DNA from: Syntrophaceae bacterium
Lineage (GTDB): Bacteria > Desulfobacterota > Syntrophia > Syntrophales > Smithellaceae
Assembly: GCA_009773315.1 (NCBI GenBank)
Contig: WRPE01000006.1
Location: 94,296 to 147,987, forward strand
DNA: 53,692 nt
Reading direction: 5' to 3'
Part shown: positions 2,438 through 53,692 of the stretch, one piece after another
How positions within the stretch are numbered: the first letter of the stretch is position 1
How the letters are laid out: every line of letters starts with the position of its first letter
Position numbers and translations under genes: made by a program
Notes under the pieces: generated by a model
What the model was told of the DNA's origin: nothing
The model's database searches: none
Seen by the model: the letters and a program-made list of their open reading frames with translations, nothing else

Positions 2438-3973
2438 ATGACTGCAAAAATAATTTTAATTCATCCACCCGTCGCAAAACCCTCTGAACCGCCGGCAGGA
2501 ATTGCCAAACTGTCTTCTTGTCTGCAAGCGAACGGCGTTGACCATCGGGTGATCGACGCCAATCTGGAAGGCATTCTCCATCTGATGCGAGTCTTCGCCC
2601 AGGCCGGCGCGCCTTCCGGCCGCTGGAACGTCCGCGCCTGCAAAAACCTGGAAGCCAACCTGGCCGCCCTGCAAAACCCTGACACCTTCGGCAACAAAAG
2701 CCGCTACTCCCGCATCGTGCTGGATGTCAATCACGTTTTGAATTTAGCTGGGAAACCCTACGGCGTAAACCTTTCCTTGTCCGACTATACAGACAACAAA
2801 CTATCCCCGGTGAAAAGCGGCGACTTGATCCGGGCTGCCGAAAATCCCGAAACCAACCCTTTCTATCCTTACTTTTCCGGACGTCTGACGCAAGTGTTGG
2901 CGGAGTCTCCAGAGTTTATCGGCTTTTCGCTTAATTTTTTAAGCCAGGCGATTTGTACGATGGCCATGATCGGCTTTATCAAAACAATTCACCCCCGGCA
3001 GAAAATTATTCTGGGCGGGTCCCTGACAACATCCTGGGTCCAGAGAACCGGCCGGACCAATCTTTTTTCCGGCCTTGTGGAGGAAATCGTGGCCGGCGCG
3101 GGAGAAGATAAATTGCTGGAACTTTTGGGAGTAAAAGATATCCAAAGACGCGCCTCAACAGATTACCGTCTCCTGATCGAGCATCGCTATCTTTCTCCAG
3201 GTTTTATCATGCCTTACAGTTCGGCGCGCGGCTGCTGGTGGCGAAAGTGCGCGTTTTGCCCGGAGAAAGCCGAAGCTAATCCCTATCTGCCCCAGCCCGT
3301 CACAGAGACCATCGGAGAATTGCAGACGCTGACGCAGCAGACGCATCCATCGCTGATTCACCTTCTGGATAGTTCCATCGCTCCGGCGCTTTTAAAGGCG
3401 CTGGCGGAACAACCACCGGGTGCGCCCTGGTATGGTTTTACCCGCGTTACCCGGCATTTAGCCGATGAGGATTTTTGTCGGGCGTTGAAAGCCGGCGGCT
3501 GCGCGATGCTGAAACTCGGCATGGAGTCCGGCGATCAGACCGTCCTTGATCATTTGAACAAAGGCATTGATCTTCAAACAGCCTTGGCGGCGCTCAAGGC
3601 TCTGAAGAATGCCGGTATTGCCACCTATTGCTATTTTCTCTTCGGTACGCCACCGGAAGACGAAGCGGCCGCGTTGAAAACGCTGGATTTCGTCTCCCGT
3701 CACGCCGACTGCATTGACTTTCTGAATCTCGCGATCTTTAATCTACCCGCTACCAGTATGGAGGCGGAAAGACTCGCCACACAGGATTTTTATGAAGGCG
3801 ATTTATCATTATACAAAAATTTCCATCATCCCGGAGGCTGGCAACGCCCCAAAGTCCGCAATTTCCTAGCTAAAACATTCAAGAAGCATCCCGCAATAGC
3901 GCCGATTGTCAAGCGCGTCCCGGAATTTTTCACCTCCAACCATGCGCCGTTTTTTACTTTTCCAAATAAATAA
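2438..3973 (+). CDS. B12-binding domain radical SAM protein
   Basis: A 511-residue radical SAM enzyme. The first half resembles a cobalamin-binding domain: it opens IILIHPPVAKPSEPPAGIA and contains EFIGFSLNFLSQ and KIILGGSLTTSW, but the DxHxxG motif for base-off B12 is not obvious. The radical SAM core follows the cluster motif RGCWWRKCAFC (about residues 266-276), spaced C-x4-C-x2-C rather than C-x3-C-x2-C, a spacing also seen in some B12-type radical SAM enzymes. The C-terminal part has LKLGMESGDQTVLDHLNKGI, usual for this group. The reaction is unknown. The start has no clear Shine-Dalgarno sequence. It precedes nrdJ with a 110-base gap, and both are B12-linked by family. Confidence 0.85.
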   Translation: MTAKIILIHPPVAKPSEPPAGIAKLSSCLQANGVDHRVIDANLEGILHLMRVFAQAGAPSGRWNVRACKNLEANLAALQNPDTFGNKSRYSRIVLDVNHVLNLAGKPYGVNLSLSDYTDNKLSPVKSGDLIRAAENPETNPFYPYFSGRLTQVLAESPEFIGFSLNFLSQAICTMAMIGFIKTIHPRQKIILGGSLTTSWVQRTGRTNLFSGLVEEIVAGAGEDKLLELLGVKDIQRRASTDYRLLIEHRYLSPGFIMPYSSARGCWWRKCAFCPEKAEANPYLPQPVTETIGELQTLTQQTHPSLIHLLDSSIAPALLKALAEQPPGAPWYGFTRVTRHLADEDFCRALKAGGCAMLKLGMESGDQTVLDHLNKGIDLQTALAALKALKNAGIATYCYFLFGTPPEDEAAALKTLDFVSRHADCIDFLNLAIFNLPATSMEAERLATQDFYEGDLSLYKNFHHPGGWQRPKVRNFLAKTFKKHPAIAPIVKRVPEFFTSNHAPFFTFPNK

Positions 3974-45213: not shown

Positions 45214-46082
45214 AACGACTCACTCCTTGCTAAGCCTTGGGGTCGAATAACCAAAATGACCATGACAAGAATCAACGCCGACAAATTCATAAAGCGCGGC
45301 TCTCCAATAACAAAACAGATGATGGCGTGGGTAAATCCGATTAAAAAACTGGCCATGATCGTGCCTTTAATGTTACCCAAACCGCCTAAAACTGCGATGA
45401 GGATCGCGGTAACCATGTACATCCAGCCCATGCCCGGCTCGACCGACCAGACCGGTGAGACAATGAGCATCCCGATAATGACGGGCAACAGGACGATCAT
45501 CATCGTAAACATATAGAGCGTTTCAACATTGATGCCGACAATTTTCGACGAGTAGATGTCCTGGGATAAAGCCCGGATGGCCATACCGGTTTTTGTTTTA
45601 ACAAAGAAGAAAACGAACGCACCGGTCAGCGCGAGAGCGATCACGGCGCCGACCATCAGCTGCTTGGGCACCACCACGTCCCAGAATTGGAACGTGCCGG
45701 CCATCAGCGTTGTCTCCAGATAAACACCAGCCTGAACCGGATAAAAATAATTGGCCGCCTGCTCAACAATCAACGCCACCAGGAGCAGCGCCGTCAGAAG
45801 AACATCCTCGGTTGCGAGATATTTTTTAATCATGCCTTTGTAAATGAGAATGGCTACAATAAATTGAACCACGACCATGCCTAAAATGGAAGGGATCAGA
45901 GGCCAATCGAGCGCTGACATAAACATCCAGGTGCCGTAAACCGTGAGAGGAAAGATATAAGCGTATCCGAGATGAAAAATCCGCAGCACCCCGCAGATCA
46001 GAGAAAAACCAAGAGCAATCAGAAGATAAATTGAACCCAGCACAAAAGTAAAAACGACAACACTCTGAATATAAGTCCACAT
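45207..46082 (-). CDS. Liv-type ABC transporter permease (LivH-like)
   Basis: A 291-residue inner-membrane permease and the first gene of the operon. Marks are IYLLIALGFSLICGVLRIFH (the LivH G-L-x-L-I-x-G-V motif), KTGMAIRALSQDIYSSKIVG and VLGGLGNIKGTIMASFLIGF. About eight hydrophobic segments. GAGGGTG precedes the ATG. The following order is permease, ATPase, ATPase, CoA-transferase, CoA-transferase, binding protein. Confidence 0.94.
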   Translation of the reverse strand: MWTYIQSVVVFTFVLGSIYLLIALGFSLICGVLRIFHLGYAYIFPLTVYGTWMFMSALDWPLIPSILGMVVVQFIVAILIYKGMIKKYLATEDVLLTALLLVALIVEQAANYFYPVQAGVYLETTLMAGTFQFWDVVVPKQLMVGAVIALALTGAFVFFFVKTKTGMAIRALSQDIYSSKIVGINVETLYMFTMMIVLLPVIIGMLIVSPVWSVEPGMGWMYMVTAILIAVLGGLGNIKGTIMASFLIGFTHAIICFVIGEPRFMNLSALILVMVILVIRPQGLARSESLW

Positions 46083-46636
46083 GCCTTTTCACCCTCTATG
46101 AATAGATCTAAAATTTTTTCATAACAACGATCATGAAAAGTTCCCGAAATTCCCGGAAACCACTTCTTGCGCTTCGATCAGCGCTGGATAACATCGAATC
46201 CAGCACGCCGGGTAAAGACACAAAAAACAATCGTAACCGAACGGAGCCGGTGCAATTGTTGTCGAAAAAATCGTAACAATGATCTTTGATGCTTGTTGAA
46301 AGATTGAAAATGTTTGGAAATATCTTTGGCTGGCGTCAAACCCTGGCGGGAATCACGCGGATTGACTTCGGCATGGACGATACTACGTTGAGGCAAAAAA
46401 TATATCGCGAACACAAGGCCTCCAAAGCTTTCAGTTTTTGAATCTGTTCCCTTTTCAGGAAAACCGTTTGGCAATAAATTCTGCAAGTCGGCTTCCAAGG
46501 ATCATTCGTTTTTCAGCTGCTTTGAAATGGTTCACATAAAATATTTGCATCATGTTAAAAAATGCGAAAGCGGTTTAATTACTAAAACATGTAATTTTAT
46601 TTGTCAACGAAAAAATAGCTTAGAAAATATTTTTTT
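46083..46636. other. 554-base gap without a recognisable gene
   Basis: Upstream of the transporter operon and downstream of the DUF3343 gene. A 106-codon minus-strand frame at 46178-46498 has no ribosome site and no recognisable family, and was rejected. The left part should contain the livH promoter, but no clear -10/-35 pair was seen. The right part (46520-46636) is AT-rich. A transposase or regulator remnant could be hidden, but none was identified. Confidence 0.5.
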
Positions 46637-46864
46637 TCAAAGCGACATTATTTCAAAGAAATCCAGCTTGCCTTGCAGAATATTTTCCAACAGATTTCTG
46701 TCGGACAGATTGAAACGCAAGCAGACGCCGCAGTCGGAACTGAGATGACGTGGCACGGGAATGAGCTTGCAGGAAATATTTTGAGCCTTGATGATCTTTT
46801 CGGCACGCAGCGCGTGACTTATGGATGCAAACAAAACGACAGCCTGGGATGAGGGATCGGTCAT
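46637..46864 (-). CDS. DUF3343 domain protein
   Basis: A 75-residue protein with the DUF3343 pattern: VVLFASISHALRAEKIIKAQ, then KLIPVPRHLSSDCGVCLRF. The C-G-V-C-L pair of Cys is conserved in the family and may bind or carry a chalcogen. DUF3343 genes commonly sit beside cysteine desulfurase-like, TusA-like and YedE genes in selenium-related operons. It is the last gene here, 27 bases after the desulfurase. Confidence 0.9.
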   Translation of the reverse strand: MTDPSSQAVVLFASISHALRAEKIIKAQNISCKLIPVPRHLSSDCGVCLRFNLSDRNLLENILQGKLDFFEIMSL

Positions 46865-46891
46865 CGACGAAACGTTTATCCTTTCAAAAGA

Positions 46892-48049
46892 TCAGCGATT
46901 TATAAGCCCTATAATAGCCTCAGCGGCGTAATCCGCATCCTCGCTTGTATTGAGAAAACCGAAACTGAAACGAACCGTCCCTTGTGGAAATGTCCCGATG
47001 GTCCGGTGGGCCGACGGCGCGCAGTGCAAACCCGGCCGACACAGAATGCCCCATTTTTCTTCAAAGTAAAGAGCAGCATCCGACGGCGTGATATTCCGGA
47101 CGTTAAACGACACAACCGCGGTTTGTATGGCGGCATTATTCAGACCATAAACGACGACACGATCTCTTAATGCTATCATGTGATCCAGAAAACGGGCCGT
47201 TAGTTGTTCTTCTTTCGCCCGGATCACTGCGATGGTCTTTCCGCTAATGAAGTTCGCTCCCGCGCCCAGACCGGCAATGCCTATGGTGTTAGGTGTGCCG
47301 CTTTCATACTTGTCCGGCATAAAATCCGGCTGCTTTTCAAATTCAGAGCGGCTGCCCGTTCCGCCCATCATAAGCGGTGGAATTTTTTTCTCCAGCCCTT
47401 TGCGGATATAAAGCCCTCCTGTGCCCTGTGGCCCATAGAGTGATTTATGGCCGGTAAAAGCCAAAATATCAATTTTCATTCTCTGCACATCGACCGGCAA
47501 AGCGCCCGCTGTTTGCGCTGCGTCCACACAAAAAATAATGTCGCCTTGCTCCTTAAGCCGTAAACCAACCGCTTCAATCGGAAAAATCGTTCCCGTCACA
47601 TTGGAAGCATGCGTCAGAACAACCATTCTGGTGTCATTCCGAACGGCTTTGCTGATGTCATCAGGATCAAGTTCGCCGCGCGGAGAGCAGGGAATCACCG
47701 ATACTTTCACGCCTTGCGATTCAAGAAATCGCAACGGCCTCATCACGGAGTTATGTTCCATGGCGCTGGTGATGATATGGTCGCCCGGTTTCAATGTTCC
47801 CTGCAGGGCTATATTGAGCGCCTCCGTGGAATTTTTCGTCAGAGCGAGGCACAGCGGGTCATCGATGTTGAAAAGGCGAGCCAATATTTCACGCGTTTCG
47901 TAAACAATGCGCCCGGCGTCGATGCAAAGTCCATGTCCGGAGCGGCCGGGATTGGCGCCAATGGTCTGCTGATAAGAAATCATCGCCGCAAGCATCGCAT
48001 CCGGTTTGGGAAACGACGTTGCGGCGTTATCCAGATAAATTGTTTTCAT
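46892..48049 (-). CDS. Cysteine desulfurase-like class V aminotransferase
   Basis: A 385-residue PLP enzyme. It opens with IYLDNAATSFPKPDAML. The PLP Lys is in AFTGHKSLYGPQGTGGLYI (about residue 202), preceded by CVDAAQTAGALPVD. The likely catalytic Cys is in RPGLHCAPSAHRTIGTF (about residue 341). This branch, often found with YedE, TusA-like and DUF3343 proteins, probably removes sulfur or selenium from (seleno)cysteine. It follows the TusA-like gene after 27 bases. Confidence 0.92.
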   Translation of the reverse strand: MKTIYLDNAATSFPKPDAMLAAMISYQQTIGANPGRSGHGLCIDAGRIVYETREILARLFNIDDPLCLALTKNSTEALNIALQGTLKPGDHIITSAMEHNSVMRPLRFLESQGVKVSVIPCSPRGELDPDDISKAVRNDTRMVVLTHASNVTGTIFPIEAVGLRLKEQGDIIFCVDAAQTAGALPVDVQRMKIDILAFTGHKSLYGPQGTGGLYIRKGLEKKIPPLMMGGTGSRSEFEKQPDFMPDKYESGTPNTIGIAGLGAGANFISGKTIAVIRAKEEQLTARFLDHMIALRDRVVVYGLNNAAIQTAVVSFNVRNITPSDAALYFEEKWGILCRPGLHCAPSAHRTIGTFPQGTVRFSFGFLNTSEDADYAAEAIIGLINR

Positions 48050-48076
48050 TGAAACTTTCTGTCCAACGGCGATCTT

Positions 48077-48292
48077 TTATGCTTTGGCCGTCCGAATGAT
48101 GATATCCGCCCCGTTTTGGCTGATGTCCACCTTCAGGCCGCGCCGGTTGATCAGGCGTGAGACATTTTCACGCGCGACTTCATTATCCACCAGAATTTCC
48201 AAATCCGCATAGCCGTCCGCCAAAGCCCGGTCGACTAAAACGACGGGCTGCGGACAGGACAACCCTCGGGTGTCAACTTGTTTTGCGCTCAT
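48077..48292 (-). CDS. TusA/YedF-like sulfurtransferase
   Basis: A 71-residue protein of the TusA family. The acceptor Cys13 is in DTRGLSCPQPVVLVDRALA. The C-terminal half (DNEVARENVSRLINRRGLKV) fits. It has no C-terminal extension as in full YedF. It lies between YedE and the desulfurase-like enzyme, so it probably carries a persulfide or perselenide between them. Confidence 0.95.
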   Translation of the reverse strand: MSAKQVDTRGLSCPQPVVLVDRALADGYADLEILVDNEVARENVSRLINRRGLKVDISQNGADIIIRTAKA

Positions 48293-48314
48293 GTATTATT
48301 CTCCTCCTCGAAAA

Positions 48315-49394
48315 TCAAGCAACTATTTTGTCTCTCTGCGTAAATCCAATCACCAGACAGAAAATCAATCCGGTGATCACGGCAGCAGGACCGAAAGCGG
48401 CCACGCCTTTGGGCGAACTGGCAATGGCAAAATTGTGAGCAAACGCCGCGCCGACAATCATGCCCGTTGCAAAAATGGCCGCGTCCATGTCGCCTTCCCC
48501 GGACAAAAAGAGTTGACGTCCCGGACATCCGCCCGCCAGAACAAACGCCAGTCCCGCAAGCGTCATACCCAGAAAATTCCAGAGATGGTCGGTATGCGCA
48601 ATCGGCTGCCCCTCAAAGCCGGGTTTGAACTGACCGAGAAACAAATTCATCACAAATGCAAAAACCAAGAGCGCGGCCACACCGCTCACCAAATGAAAAT
48701 CCCGAATCAGTATCATATCGCGAAACGCACCCATCGTACAGAATCGACTGCGCTGCGCCAGCGCGCCGATAATCAAACCGGCAATGATGCTGATGATAAT
48801 AGGCGCGTGCTGAGAACCAGGTCCTTTCACACTGGAAAAGATCGGACCGCCCGGCGTGAAGGAAACCTGAAAGACCAGCAAAAGAAAAAGGCCAACCATC
48901 AGCGCCGGGAAAATCCAGCCGCTGGCTTTCCTTTGCGGATAGGACCGCCCGAGGCTGAAACCGTTTTTTAAAAGCAGAACGCCGATAAAAATTCCGAAAA
49001 CCAGTCCCACCAGTCCCAGGACAGCATTGCCGTCGCCGCCGGCCAGGCGTAAAAGCGTCCGCCAGGGACAACCTAAAAATACCAGCGCGCCCAACATCGC
49101 AAAAATGCCGAGGAAGAAACGAATTAAGGGTGAAGAACCGCCGCGCGGTTTGTACTCTCCGGCAAAAAGAGCCGCCGCAAAAGCCCCCAAAACAAATCCC
49201 ATGATTTCGGGCCGGAGATACTGGACAACGTCCGCCCGGTGCAACCCCAGCGCTCCGGCAATGTCTCGTTCAAAGCAGGCCACGCAAATGCCCATATTGG
49301 GAGGATTGCCGAAATACTGCAGCAGCGCCGCACCGATGCCGATCACCGCTCCGACGACAATAATCCCCGTGCGGGTTGCAAAAATATTTTTCAC
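48315..49394 (-). CDS. yedE: YedE-family putative selenium transporter
   Basis: A 359-residue membrane protein of the YeeE/YedE family with about ten hydrophobic segments in two similar halves. Conserved Cys motifs are VFLGCPWRTLLRLAGGDGNA and LAGGCPGRQLFLSGEGD. Other marks are SRFCTMGAFRDMILIRDFHL. With TusA-like, desulfurase-like and DUF3343 genes downstream, it matches the known selenium-associated version. AGGAGGAGG precedes its ATG-equivalent GTG start. Two palindromic operators lie upstream. Confidence 0.93.
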   Translation of the reverse strand: MKNIFATRTGIIVVGAVIGIGAALLQYFGNPPNMGICVACFERDIAGALGLHRADVVQYLRPEIMGFVLGAFAAALFAGEYKPRGGSSPLIRFFLGIFAMLGALVFLGCPWRTLLRLAGGDGNAVLGLVGLVFGIFIGVLLLKNGFSLGRSYPQRKASGWIFPALMVGLFLLLVFQVSFTPGGPIFSSVKGPGSQHAPIIISIIAGLIIGALAQRSRFCTMGAFRDMILIRDFHLVSGVAALLVFAFVMNLFLGQFKPGFEGQPIAHTDHLWNFLGMTLAGLAFVLAGGCPGRQLFLSGEGDMDAAIFATGMIVGAAFAHNFAIASSPKGVAAFGPAAVITGLIFCLVIGFTQRDKIVA

Positions 49395-49482
49395 TTTAAA
49401 ACCTCCTCCTGAAAAAGTTAAAACCGTATTAACAGGATGATCACAGTAAAATCAAATTCATAATAGTGATATTGTTATGGGT

Positions 49483-49488
49483 ATTATA
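49483..49488 (-). promoter_or_regulatory. Candidate -10 box of the selenium operon
   Basis: TATAAT on the minus strand, about 90 bases before the yedE start. The -35 region (TTATGT at 16 bases) is poor, which would fit an activator-dependent promoter. The two palindromes would be centred near -55 and -90. Confidence 0.4.
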
Positions 49489-49525
49489 ACGATAAGGTAT
49501 GCCGACATAACCACTACCCACAGGG

Positions 49526-49572
49526 GTTGTATACAACTTTTACGAAATTCAATTATGAAAGTTGTATACAAG
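49526..49572. promoter_or_regulatory. Paired operator palindromes upstream of yedE
   Basis: GTTGTATACAAC (49526-49537, a perfect 12-bp palindrome followed by TTT) and GTTGTATACAAG (49561-49572, preceded by AAA). Start-to-start distance is 35 bases. The same pair with the same pitch occurs before the neighbouring regulator gene. Confidence 0.85.
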
Positions 49573-49579
49573 TCGTCTA

Positions 49580-50599
49580 CTAGGTTTGGCTGCGCTTGAT
49601 CATAAGCCCTATATTTTCGTGGGTGTTTTTCACCGTCAGATTGATATCTTTGTGCGCGTTCTGCCAGACGCGGAAGATTTCATCGGCAAAGGCCTGTCCT
49701 ACGGTTGCCACGTCCTTGAAGTCAAACTCTATGGTCTTGAACTTCTCCAGTCCGGCCAGAATTCTGCGGGCCTGCGACCGGGATACATAATCGACATCCT
49801 GATGATACAGTTTCACCTTCACACCGGTCTTACTGAACTGGAAAGATTCATCGGTATATTGATTAAACAGATCGGGGAGTGTCTTTTTTGATTTCAATCC
49901 CAGGGCAAATTCAACTCTTGTGCCCTGGGTGGATTGAATATCCTTTATATAAATATCCTGGGCGACATTGTCGAAAAAGATTTTTTTTTGAAAGCTTTTG
50001 ATGGTCAGTTGATCCGCTATTTTTGATGTAAAAAAGATTCCCTCGCCACTGTGCGCCTCCGGCGCCGTAGTTTCTTTCCCTTTGAGCAGATCCTGAATGG
50101 CATCCATGGTTGAGACCAGCCGCTTCCTTTTCATGATATTGTTAAAGATGCCGACGCCCCAATCCGCAACGGTAAAGCGGATGTCCGTAGAGGTTTTCAT
50201 GAGAACAACATCAATTTTCTCCGATGCGGAATGTTCAATGGCGTTGTTGAGCATTTCAGTAAAGGCGTAATCGACAATGGAAGACACATTGCCGGATATT
50301 CCTTGAAAGATGGAGCTTTCCTCCTTGATGGCGCTTAGCACCTTGTCTTCAGCCAGATTCTTGTTATTTATTATCTTTCTGACTCTTGTGGGTCTTGCCG
50401 GCGCCGTACCCTTTTTAGAAGCCTTAACATAATGCGCCTGATTGGCCTTGCCCACCCGAATAATGGCGCCATCATCGGCAAGGTTTTTCAGAAACATCTG
50501 TGCGTAGGCCCTTGAAAACCCCGTTTTATCCACAAGATCAGCCGTTGTCACCCGGCCTTTTTTCTTCAGAAAATCAAATATAAGGTCTTTTAAGTCCAT
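49580..50599 (-). CDS. HTH, HATPase and DUF4325 regulator
   Basis: A 339-residue soluble protein. Residues 1-60 look like a winged-helix DNA-binding domain (RVTTADLVDKTGFSRAYAQM). Residues about 95-235 are a GHKL-type ATPase domain of anti-sigma/histidine-kinase type: FTEMLNNAIEHS, ADWGVGI and HSGEGIFFTSKIAD. Residues about 260-335 match DUF4325, a STAS-like fold (DYVSRSQARRILAGLEKF). Such proteins are predicted transcription regulators without proven ligands. Paired palindromes lie just upstream of its ATG and just downstream of its stop in front of yedE, so it probably controls itself and the selenium operon. GAGG precedes the ATG. Confidence 0.85.
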   Translation of the reverse strand: MDLKDLIFDFLKKKGRVTTADLVDKTGFSRAYAQMFLKNLADDGAIIRVGKANQAHYVKASKKGTAPARPTRVRKIINNKNLAEDKVLSAIKEESSIFQGISGNVSSIVDYAFTEMLNNAIEHSASEKIDVVLMKTSTDIRFTVADWGVGIFNNIMKRKRLVSTMDAIQDLLKGKETTAPEAHSGEGIFFTSKIADQLTIKSFQKKIFFDNVAQDIYIKDIQSTQGTRVEFALGLKSKKTLPDLFNQYTDESFQFSKTGVKVKLYHQDVDYVSRSQARRILAGLEKFKTIEFDFKDVATVGQAFADEIFRVWQNAHKDINLTVKNTHENIGLMIKRSQT

Positions 50600-50616
50600 C
50601 GCTTATGCCTCGAATT

Positions 50617-50663
50617 GTTGTATACAACTTTATTGTAAACTAATTTTAAAAGTTGTCAACAAG
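50617..50663. promoter_or_regulatory. Paired operator palindromes over the regulator promoter
   Basis: GTTGTATACAAC (50617-50628) and GTTGTCAACAAG (50652-50663), start-to-start 35 bases. On the minus strand a promoter TTGACA (50659-50654) and TACAAT (50637-50632) with a 16-base spacer lies across them: one palindrome covers the -35, the other the start of transcription. This geometry suggests autorepression. Confidence 0.8.
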
Positions 50664-50700
50664 TTGTATGCAATCATGGGATTGATGTGTTTGAAATTTT

Positions 50701-52578
50701 CTAATTGGATTTGTCCGCCAGTTCTTGTTTCTTCATCATGATTAAAACCGCGGAGATGGCGCCTTCGGTCATGCCGGGGATGCGTTCCATCTGGCCGATG
50801 GTGCCGGGGGCGACGCGGGTGAGCTTGGTGCGCAGTTCGTTGGAAAGGCCGGGGACCACCGAGTAATCAAAATCCGGCGGGATTTTCTTTTTTTCCTGAT
50901 CTTTTAATTTTTTCGTCGCTTCGAACTGGCGCTTGATATAGCCTTCATACTTAATTTCTATTTCAATCTGCTTTTTAATGAAGAGATCGCTTTGCGCCTC
51001 CCAGCCGGGGAAGCCGTTTAAATCGTCATAAGCGATTTCATGTCTTTTCAAAAGGCCGTACAGGTTTGTGGCCTGTGTAATCGGCGCTGATTGCAGTTTG
51101 GTCAACGCTTCATTCACGTCCGGCGAAGGTTTAACGGACACGGACTTGAGATGGGCAATGCCCTCAGCGATACGACTCATCTTATCCTGAAGATCAACAT
51201 AATGATCGCGCTCGATCAGCCCCAATTCGCATCCCTTGCCCATCAGGCGGATGACGGCGTTGTCTTCCCGCAGAATCAGCCGATATTCGGCGCGCGAGGT
51301 AAACATGCGGTAAGGTTCATCCACGCCTCGTGTGACCAGATCGTCGATCATCACCGCCATGTAGGCTTCGGAGCGATCCAGAATAAATGGCGGAGCGCCC
51401 TGAAAGGCACGGGTGGCATTGATGCCTGCCCAAAGGCCTTGCGCCGCCGCTTCTTCATAACCGGAGGTGCCGTTGATCTGACCGGCCAGATACAAGCCGG
51501 AAATTAATTTTGTTTCCAGCGTAAGCTTGAGCTGGCTGGGCTGCACAAAATCATATTCAATGGCGTAGGCCGGGCGCATAATCTCGGCCTGTTCCAAGCC
51601 CCGCACGCTATGAACAATCTGATATTGCAATTCCAGCGGCAGAGAGTTGCCCAGTCCCTTGGCATATATTTCCTGTGTGTCGAGACCTTCGTGCTCCAGC
51701 ACCACCGGATGACTTTGACGGTCGCCGAAGCGCATGACTTTATCTTCCAGCGACGGGCAATAACGGGCGCCGACGCCCTTGATAGCGCCGGAATAAAGCG
51801 GAGACTGCTGAATATTGTCCCGAATCAAGCGATGCGTTTCGGTGGATGTGGCCGAAAAATAGGAGGGCAGGCGTTCGGACCGCAAAGCCTTGGTGGTAAA
51901 TGAAAAAGGCGCAGGTTCCGGATCGCTGTCCTGGCTCTCCAGACAGGAAAAATCAATGGAGGAGGCTTTGAGCCGGGGCGGCGTGCCTGTTTTCATCCGG
52001 CCCACTTCAAAGCCGAGTGTCTTAAGTTGATTGGCCAGGCTAACGGAGGCCAGTTCGCCTGCGCGTCCGGATTGTGTTTGCGACGTACCGATATGCACCA
52101 GGCCGTTTAGAAACGTTCCGGTGGTGATAATAACTTTTTGGGCGCCGTAAAAAAATCCGCTCGAATCCAGCACACCTTTAATTTCATTGTTCTCGATGAC
52201 AAGGCTTTCGACCATGGCCTGACGGATATAGAGATTTTTCTGATTTTCCACGGTGGCTTTCATGGTCAGGCGGTAGAGTTGTTTGTCGCACTGCATGCGC
52301 GACGATTGAACAGCCGGACCTTTGGAGGCGTTGAGCAGCCGGAAATGGACAGCGGTTTTATCGGTGATCTTGCCCATCTCGCCGCCGAGGGCATCGATTT
52401 CTTTCACGAGCTGTCCTTTGGCCAGTCCACCAATGGCCGGATTGCACGACATCAAGGCGATCGAATCCAGATTGATATTAAACAAGAGTGTCCTTACGCC
52501 CATGCGCGCCGAAGCCAGCGCCGCTTCGCAGCCGGCGTGACCGCCCCCGATGACTAATATGTCGTAAGAATCGGACAA
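50701..52578 (-). CDS. mnmG: tRNA uridine-5-carboxymethylaminomethyl modification enzyme MnmG (GidA)
   Basis: A 625-residue FAD enzyme that, with MnmE, modifies the wobble uridine of certain tRNAs. The FAD loop is [19 protein letters not shown] at the N-terminus. Other marks are [54 protein letters not shown] and [17 protein letters not shown]. The C-terminal helical domain is complete. The TTG at 52578 is chosen, because GAAGGAG lies 8 bases upstream; the longer frame from TTG 52599 would overlap that ribosome site. No rsmG, parA or parB follows. Confidence 0.96.
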
Positions 52579-52668
52579 ATTCGTTGCTCCTTCAATCAAG
52601 CACTTGCGCTTGTTTCAAATCAATAGTATTCCAGCAGAAAAAACACAACATAAAAAAAGAGGATGCAC

Positions 52669-53625
52669 TTGACCAAACCGTCATTCTGGAAAAACAATAA
52701 ACGATATTACGATCTCAAAAGTTACTGGCGTAACCTGTTCGGCTGTAATGTCCATAAACTGGCCATTGACGCGGGCTTTACCTGCCCCAACCGTGACGGT
52801 CACGTGGCCACGGGCGGTTGCATTTACTGCGACGGCAGAGGTTCGACGTTGCGCCAGCACGGCGAATTGCCCTCCATTGCCGATCAGATCGCTTCCGGCA
52901 AAAAATATTATAAGCCGTCCGCTTCTAAGTTTATAGCTTACTTTCAGACCTTTACTAATACTTACGCGCCGGTGGCCGGATTGCAGGCGCTCTATGATGA
53001 CGCGCTGGCCCAGGAAGACATCATCGGCCTTTCCACCGGCACAAGGCCGGACTGCCTGGGGTCGGATGTGATTGAGCTTTTGAGCGGCTATGCGAAAAAA
53101 CATCACATCTGGATCGAATTGGGTTTGCAGTCCATCCACGATAAAACATTGCAGCTCATTAATCGGGGGCATAATTTTCAGCAGTTTCTGGATGCGGTCA
53201 CTGCTCTTTCGGGACGGGGCCTGAATATTTGTGTCCACATTATTATCGGATTGCCGGGTGAAAGCGACGAAGATGTACTAAAAACAGCAAAAACTCTGGC
53301 GGCCCTGCCGATTCAGGGTATCAAGATTCATTCATTATTGGCCCTTGATGGTACACCTATGGGCGAACTATACAAAAATGGGTCAATCCCCATGATCAGC
53401 AAGGAAAAATACGTGGCGCTTACGGCTGATGTACTGGAAGTTTTGCCGCCGGAGATGGTCATTCAGCGCCTGACCGCCGACGGCTATCGCGATATCTTTC
53501 TGGCCCCCGTCTGGGCCGGCAATAAATTGGATGTGCTTAATTCTATTAATAAAGAATTGGAGAGAAGGGACTCCTATCAGGGCAAAAACTACTTAGTCGT
53601 CCCTGAAAAAGTCACTTTTTTCTAA
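52669..53625 (+). CDS. TIGR01212 (YhcC-like) radical SAM protein
   Basis: A 318-residue radical SAM protein of the YhcC/TIGR01212 family, function unproven. The cluster motif is FTCPNRDGHVATGGCIYCDG, with the family-specific long first spacing. Other marks are GRGSTLRQHGELPSI, FQTFTNTYAPV, STGTRPDCLG and VIQRLTADGYRDIFLAPVW. TTG at 52669 is favoured over ATG at 52663, because AGAGG ends only at 52662, giving a 6-base spacing to TTG and none to ATG. It is divergent from mnmG. Confidence 0.93.
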   Translation: MTKPSFWKNNKRYYDLKSYWRNLFGCNVHKLAIDAGFTCPNRDGHVATGGCIYCDGRGSTLRQHGELPSIADQIASGKKYYKPSASKFIAYFQTFTNTYAPVAGLQALYDDALAQEDIIGLSTGTRPDCLGSDVIELLSGYAKKHHIWIELGLQSIHDKTLQLINRGHNFQQFLDAVTALSGRGLNICVHIIIGLPGESDEDVLKTAKTLAALPIQGIKIHSLLALDGTPMGELYKNGSIPMISKEKYVALTADVLEVLPPEMVIQRLTADGYRDIFLAPVWAGNKLDVLNSINKELERRDSYQGKNYLVVPEKVTFF

Positions 53626-53630
53626 AGAGC

Positions 53631-53666
53631 ATGAGCGGGGATCATTTTCAAGTGATCTTCGCTCAT
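53631..53666 (+). terminator. Stem-loop after the radical SAM gene
   Basis: A 14-bp stem with two G-T pairs (ATGAGCGGGGATCA with TGATCTTCGCTCAT) and an 8-base loop, starting 6 bases after the stop codon. No T run follows, so it may be a processing or stability hairpin rather than an intrinsic terminator. Confidence 0.6.
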
Positions 53667-53692
53667 ACTCAGACCGATAAATCCGGTCGAAT

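Follow-up and report, generated by a model that had tools for sequence, protein, structure and literature searches.

What does a solitary HTH/ATPase/DUF4325 gene, here called REG, control when paired palindromes flank it on both sides and one of the pairs fronts a selenium operon? The initial annotation of this locus answered with a dedicated regulator that represses itself and controls the selenium genes. We compared the window, the whole stretch of 53,692 nucleotides that was analysed, with related genomes, and find that self-regulation of REG is well supported by sequence comparison and that control of selenium genes is not. We favor, with a probability of about 0.6, a solitary, horizontally spread, self-regulating gene whose product would bind two multi-site modules at its own gene.

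Two multi-site modules bracket the REG gene

We re-find the paired palindromes that had been described, with a pitch of 35 bp and mirrored flanks in both pairs (starts 49526/49561 and 50617/50652; TTT after the first copy, AAA before the second). GTTGTATACAAC is present at 49526 and 50617 with 0 mismatches at either, and its partners GTTGTATACAAG at 49561 and GTTGTCAACAAG at 50652 carry 1 and 3 mismatches to the palindrome, respectively. A third site overlooked in the initial annotation, GTTGTATGCAAT, is found at 50663, 11 bp beyond 50652; the corresponding site at the stop-codon end of REG (49572-49584) is weaker. Read on the minus strand, the resulting 59-bp modules (Table 1) consist of O1 (..TACAAC), O2 (TTGTTGACAAC or TTGTATACAAC) 11 bp further on and O3 (GTTGT..AC) after another 35 bp; the outer two sites form an inverted repeat in each pair, and the modules themselves are direct repeats 1091 bp apart. 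As had been claimed, the pair ahead of REG covers its promoter, with 50617-50675 spanning TTGACA-16-TACAAT, and most Smithellaceae relatives show a similar promoter sequence by eye; the other pair does lie 132 bp ahead of the yedE start codon. The downstream module holds the REG stop codon within its first bases, its spacer has no promoter, and no T-run terminator is found there.

Table 1. Coordinates of features in the window
Feature	Position	Strand	Description
yedE	48315..49394	-	putative selenium transporter (TIGR04112); heads the neighboring yedE-tusA/yedF-csd-DUF3343 group
5' region of yedE	49395..49500	-	conserved in relatives having neither REG nor module; outside the REG unit
Downstream 59-bp module	49526..49584	-	same orientation as upstream module; 71.5 bits
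REG	49580..50599	-	339 aa; HTH/ATPase/DUF4325 gene
Upstream 59-bp module	50617..50675	-	O1 GCATACAAC, O2 TTGTTGACAAC, O3 GTTGTATACAAC; steps of 11 and 35 bp; 86.7 bits, a value that is not independent, since relatives and this very site were used to train the position matrix
REG promoter, sigma-70-like	50632..50659	-	TTGACA-16-TACAAT, 11/12 matches; inside upstream module
mnmG	50701..52599	-	3' side is the REG location in several Smithellaceae

When the window was shuffled 100 times, 4 matches with no more than 2 mismatches were reached twice (mean 1.0). The spaced pattern TTGTNNACAAC-N22..25-GTTGTNNAC occurs at just two places in the home genome, both flanking REG, and its reversed control gives 0 matches in all 59 genomes compared; the home genome shows no further match to this strict pattern, and the only further one-mismatch copies of GTTGTATACAAC there are two single sites, which do not exceed the level of the reversed control. 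TTGTATACAA resembles what we take to be a GntR-type operator, a candidate that we rejected as a Pfam scan of REG gave no GntR domain. In a search for RNA elements, only four tRNAs attained their gathering score among 11 loci, and window positions 46000-53692 gave a single match, far under its gathering score.

REG joins a winged helix, a GHKL ATPase and DUF4325

REG is laid out as a winged helix (residues ~1-60), a SpoIIAB/RsbW-like GHKL ATPase (~70-238) and a STAS-like DUF4325 domain (276-329), and is the sole DUF4325 protein found in the home genome. Pfam recognizes DUF4325 (51.3 bits, cut-off 23) and HATPase_c_2 (35.6 bits, cut-off 27.4); winged-helix matches are weak, the best above its own cut-off being FaeA at 24.3 bits, and the DIP2311 C-terminal domain stays under its cut-off (25.5 bits versus 27). 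Two AlphaFold2 models have mean pLDDT values of 76 and 80. Fold searches with the first of these models only match the winged helix 1-60 to DIP2311 (Z 10.4, rmsd 1.4, 60 aligned) and the ATPase ~70-238 to SpoIIAB (Z 13.6, rmsd 3.4, 133 aligned); a sequence search of solved structures gives three weak matches. The DUF4325 part is weak in both models, with pLDDT 46-68 at residues 251-290 and a weak stretch at 253-268. Residues of the GHKL N, G1 and G2 boxes (E115, N119, D146, G148, G150, G185, G187) are invariant in 51 sequences (alignment A4, without L115 and L121). At what we take to be the usual phospho-serine position of SpoIIAA, REG reads G301-Q302, as judged by eye in alignment A1 and in a region where the C-terminal model is weak.

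Pfam and PHROGs scans of REG return no transposase or recombinase domain among their matches; the PHROGs matches comprise unknown families, Ren-like exclusion proteins, a helicase profile, and profiles of DNA-binding proteins and regulators. A known defence gene was considered and dropped, PADLOC having no match for REG, as was a phage or plasmid origin, with no match in phage and plasmid collections or in IMG/VR, a search that reaches close relatives only.

The modules are inherited together with REG

The closest named relatives of the source genome are Smithellaceae/Syntrophaceae MAGs, and REG is present in 11 of the 59 genomes, the home genome counted. Both modules are present at each of the 13 full-length REG loci in the family and order (the window, L022, L023, L025, L031-L033 and L035-L040), one of them directly ahead of REG in 13/13, with a distance between module starts of 1091 bp in 10 and of 1087, 1092 and 1104 bp in the other three. 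The weakest pair, at 38.5 and 46.3 bits, belongs to L033 of G053, a genome from another family of the order; the same locus, as L015, fails a matrix-free repeat test (19 versus a shuffled maximum of 27). A truncated REG in G010 (L034) retains only a decayed promoter module of 21.7 bits. The strict pattern is found in 11 of the 59 genomes, at the REG flanks in 9 and as one solo copy each in G021 and G031; across 8 further REG genomes it is confined to the REG region in 7 and has no match in the eighth.

Recognition helix and half-site change together

Profile A1 extends the family to 17 of 395 genomes of the phylum (E 1e-40) and to 28 of 384 genomes of the phylum of L026, whose record reads Candidatus Omnitrophota (E 1e-50), for an overall 53 distinct positive genomes with one REG match apiece (cut-offs 1e-3, 1e-40 and 1e-50). 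Half-sites of the promoter module in this wider family are GTTGACAAC, GTTGACAAT, GTTTACAAT or CCTTACAAT, and some distant homologs have none. Inspection by eye pairs a recognition helix that mostly reads SRAY..RF with GTTGACAAC or GTTTACAAC, [ST][RK]Q...KH with GTTGACAAT or GTTTACAAT, and [ST]RQT..QHF with CCTTACAAT, such that helix and half-site covary across phyla. Upstream and downstream modules of the same genome also match each other better (mean 46) than do mixed pairs (24), a difference reached by 0 of 20,000 permutations over 13 loci that were mostly chosen for having a downstream copy and of which some are related. This covariation and the matching within genomes give the strongest indication that it is REG that reads the modules and, with the upstream module at 13/13 loci, are what the self-regulatory part of the original proposal now stands on.

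The second module is less fixed in place. A downstream copy above shuffled controls lies within ~60 bases of the stop codon in 5 of 41 testable loci (19 + 22), namely L108, L212, L215, L219 and L220; L119, L122 and L223 fall outside this test because a contig end is too near, and L221, L224 and L226, which are partial or contain a stop, were left out. The repeat extends 5-17 bases into the gene end, with the stop codon inside, in L212, L215 and L220, L213 and L218 carry an exact half-site at a distance of 14 bases from the first base of the stop codon, and L202-L210 show no downstream half-site in 9/9 loci. By a spacing pattern, type I loci such as these have at least two upstream modules in 8 of 11 cases and one in the other 3. 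An 11-bp lattice among the upstream modules is weak and post hoc (p ~0.02-0.05, 8 loci, one pick doubtful), and at most suggestive of helical phasing. At L029 a second module lies ~1.7 kb downstream (3071-3114), after the next gene, as if bracketing REG and that gene.

yedE has its own control region

We find yedE in 22 of the 30 genomes checked (30 of the 59; E 1e-60), at 23 loci besides the window. The module is absent at 21 of these 23, with no position above -8.6 bits in the flanks, a few of which are short; the two that bear it, in G004 and G007, belong to near relatives that share the local gene order. The initial annotation had itself named a mismatch between yedE operons, element and regulator genes as evidence against it; a dedicated selenium regulator would have the module ahead of yedE-type operons generally, and 2 of 23 is what we find. 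REG and yedE occur together no more often than chance predicts, as 8 of 10 REG-positive and 14 of 20 REG-negative genomes have yedE (Fisher p 0.68, in the same 30 of 59 genomes), and G020 and G030 have REG and no yedE match. Conversely, yedE lies 3' of REG in 3 of the 13 loci, and another gene or ORF in 9, with the contig ending in L022; the downstream module is also present where the next gene is convergent.

Among the 18 module-free yedE loci that we aligned (L128, L143 and L144 left out), 16 keep, by eye, the block directly ahead of yedE (~49500-49395), and DNA homology to the window extends into it in 9 of these module-free loci. Conservation of this block in the absence of REG argues that yedE brings its own control region, and makes the block a candidate site for the real regulator of yedE. 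A dedicated role of REG in selenium regulation, in which it would repress its own gene and govern yedE along with the Se/S genes, appears very improbable: the adjacency of REG and yedE in G000, G004 and G007, with a module 132 bp before the gene, speaks for it, as does a yedE gene ~5.5 kb from REG in G033 and from the solo module in G021, which we take for coincidence; the module-free yedE loci, the chance-level co-occurrence, the yedE block and the modules ahead of convergent genes speak against it, and on the first three of these we reject a selenium regulon. An accidental local effect on yedE in G000, G004 and G007 is possible, and the position of REG beside selenium genes here looks accidental.

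Four minor features of the selenium genes were recorded. The conserved block (49395-49500) holds a TTATGAATTTGCTTT-like sequence. In G007, an insert of ~128 bp (L123 2616-2742) separates the block from yedE at window 49426-49431; its ends resemble inverted repeats by eye, and it is perhaps a small mobile repeat (MITE). The TusA-like gene at 48077-48292 matches the YedF model only at 1-67 of 194 (54.2 bits, cut-off 110), the first third of the model, and so encodes a short YedF/TusA protein. In G033, the gene for a selenocysteine tRNA is located between DUF3343 and yedE (L032 15194-15287).

REG occupies changing sites

A quick tree of 53 REG sequences (SH-aLRT only, midpoint root; truncated REG of G010, L034, and incomplete L118 left out here and in the pair counts) places the 13 family and order sequences in one group (support 99) within a group of 27 (support 100), which adds 11 sequences from the phylum of L026, two from Parcubacteria/Paceibacterota and L028. 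Support is weak (85-89) for where exactly the 13 fall inside the 27. Phyla are mixed in the tree, where the L026-phylum label has to change 4 times or more along branches with strong support, and G030 and G033, of the same genus, are separate. REG occupies several different sites within one family, and the 95 REG pairs that are at least 60% identical share an upstream neighbor in 22 cases, a downstream neighbor in 6 and both in 4, with some flanks short. No Pfam family occurs more than twice among 47 of 50 downstream ORFs or 50 of 52 upstream ORFs, and hence we find no conserved partner gene in these counts, which rest on ORFs of at least 70 aa called mechanically, some of them spurious. The downstream count omits the 80-aa ORF of L038 and yedE of L039 and L040 (yedE would total three, all in the nearest-relative trio), and the upstream count omits short overlapping ORFs of L108 and L113. 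Downstream, recurrence is limited to yedE of that trio and two tadA genes; upstream, mnmG recurs within Smithellaceae, and toxin-antitoxin genes are found in several loci.

In six diverged loci (L031, L032, L035-L038), homology to the window runs from ~50674-50668 to 49530-49526, which are the module edges; in near relatives L039 and L040 it runs on into yedE. Such sharp edges fit a mobile and a functional unit alike, because intergenic DNA is barely alignable at such divergence anyway. G021 and G031 each have a solo module with no REG found, located where the sister genome (G033 and G034, respectively) has module-REG-module. Both flanks match between G021 and G033, the latter having an extra ~970 bp with one gene before its upstream module; G031 and G034 share the right flank, with a pseudouridine synthase gene, and on the left only the more distant mnmG. 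The solo module of G031 is well kept, which needs either recent loss of REG or another use. A copy of the mnmG 3' end in G027 is followed by bases resembling the REG C terminus (by eye) and then by a decayed module, an example of how a lone module can be what is left of a decayed REG; weak module matches after mnmG score 35.9 bits in G017 and 18.6 bits in G016.

The left flank of G012 matches G008 up to the last base ahead of the module (by eye), and the gene preceding the unit of G012 belongs to a toxin-antitoxin-like pair, intact in G008, which we take, by eye, to be BrnTA. Some 28 bp resembling the REG 3' end precede the upstream module of G028 (score 36 versus a shuffled maximum of 31; 1 of 13 loci), and L025 has a 76-bp direct duplication of its flanks (1 of the 13 family and order loci tested). 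In L207, REG lies between the two copies of a 213-bp direct duplication (75% identical; 3-214 and 1433-1649); the duplicated stretch occurs at full length only twice in that genome, with its last ~55 bp in three more partial copies, and a search for it among Rfam families gave no match.

A model of self-regulation and its rivals

We propose that REG binds both modules and, from the one over its own promoter, would repress its own transcription. The second module, which here sits at the REG stop codon and in part of the family ahead of the promoter, would most likely allow cooperative repression by bridging or looping, and the ATP state of the protein may switch repression; the selenium operon would be a chance neighbor. 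With no other target found in the home genome, any further output of REG would pass through protein contacts, and is probably not exerted via other promoters with the strict module. Some results count against this model: the placement of the second module varies, as the loci lacking a downstream half-site and those with multiple upstream modules reveal; a downstream copy rises above controls in few matrix-free tests, and that of G053 fails; the 11-bp lattice is weak; and G031 keeps its solo module well.

Two other readings of the paired modules bear on these same results. REG might be a one-gene mobile cassette in which the modules are operators and unit ends at once, and recombination or transposition between them moves, deletes or inserts the gene, with spread across phyla and sites by no known recombinase and a lone module left upon loss. 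We consider this unlikely, even if it would account for homology that runs from module edge to module edge beside different neighbors, the several REG sites within one family, the solo modules at the sites where G033 and G034 have the full unit, the stretch like a REG 3' end in G028, the flank duplications of L025 and L207, the few common downstream neighbors (6/95) and the mixture of phyla in the tree. Against it stand the lack of a transposase or recombinase domain among the Pfam and PHROGs matches, the single match per genome in 53/53 positive genomes, the absence of any clean module-free empty site among those seen, the untidy solo sites (the additional ~970-bp gene region of G033, the differing left side of G031), the relic in G027, the several distant relatives with no downstream module and the lack of matches in phage, plasmid and viral collections. 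Alternatively, REG could be an autorepressor acting from a single site, with the second module serving only to block or terminate transcription where the gene ends, or left over from a tandem duplication. A downstream copy with no promoter that overlaps the stop codon would suit this, and many distant relatives do without such a copy; where it is present, however, it retains the geometry and a half-site type that follows the protein, and no T-run terminator is found at it. We consider a single site quite unlikely and retain self-regulation through two modules as the favored reading.

Relation to known systems

REG has in common with the anti-sigma kinases SpoIIAB/RsbW and their partners SpoIIAA/RsbV a GHKL ATPase and a STAS-like domain; in contrast to these, both domains reside in one chain with a winged helix, the gene is solitary, and G-Q apparently replaces the usual phospho-serine of the partner (by eye). 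DIP2311-like regulators, presumably of the COG2865 type, combine an HTH with a GHKL-type ATPase and have a winged helix like that of REG, whereas REG has DUF4325 and no AlbA/Schlafen domain in the Pfam scan. The lac and gal repressors are autoregulated and act through two operators and DNA looping. The likeness to REG lies in a distant second operator with the same binding geometry; the difference is that the REG operators bracket their own gene, one of them overlapping the stop codon. In selenium metabolism, LysR_Se is a predicted regulator of selenium genes proposed from genomic context (Lin et al. 2015, PMC5322559); it is unrelated in protein family to REG, and the main text of that article does not mention DUF4325.

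In the literature searched, DUF4325 ("STAS-like domain of unknown function") is rarely mentioned, searches for PF14213 and for a STAS-like domain with a histidine kinase-like ATPase or with HATPase and a winged helix found no literature, and a search on autoregulation and looping found nothing relevant. Our analysis gives a DUF4325 family a concrete, testable role as a patchy, horizontally moving and putatively self-regulating gene. The DNA sites can be read from the ends of the REG gene and change together with the protein, which offers ready protein-DNA pairs; REG is also a candidate one-gene mobile unit, and a false lead in selenium regulation is removed.

Genes beside the REG loci

REG adjoins tadA in three loci (L027, L205 and L212), and tRNA genes are present at 7 of the 54 REG loci scanned. 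Copies of the mnmG 3' end are found away from mnmG in L105 (7789-7889), L031 (10843-10890) and L035 (11500-11575). The region 3' of mnmG has the appearance of a hot spot for integration, and toxin-antitoxin genes accompany some of the regions with stray mnmG 3'-end copies.
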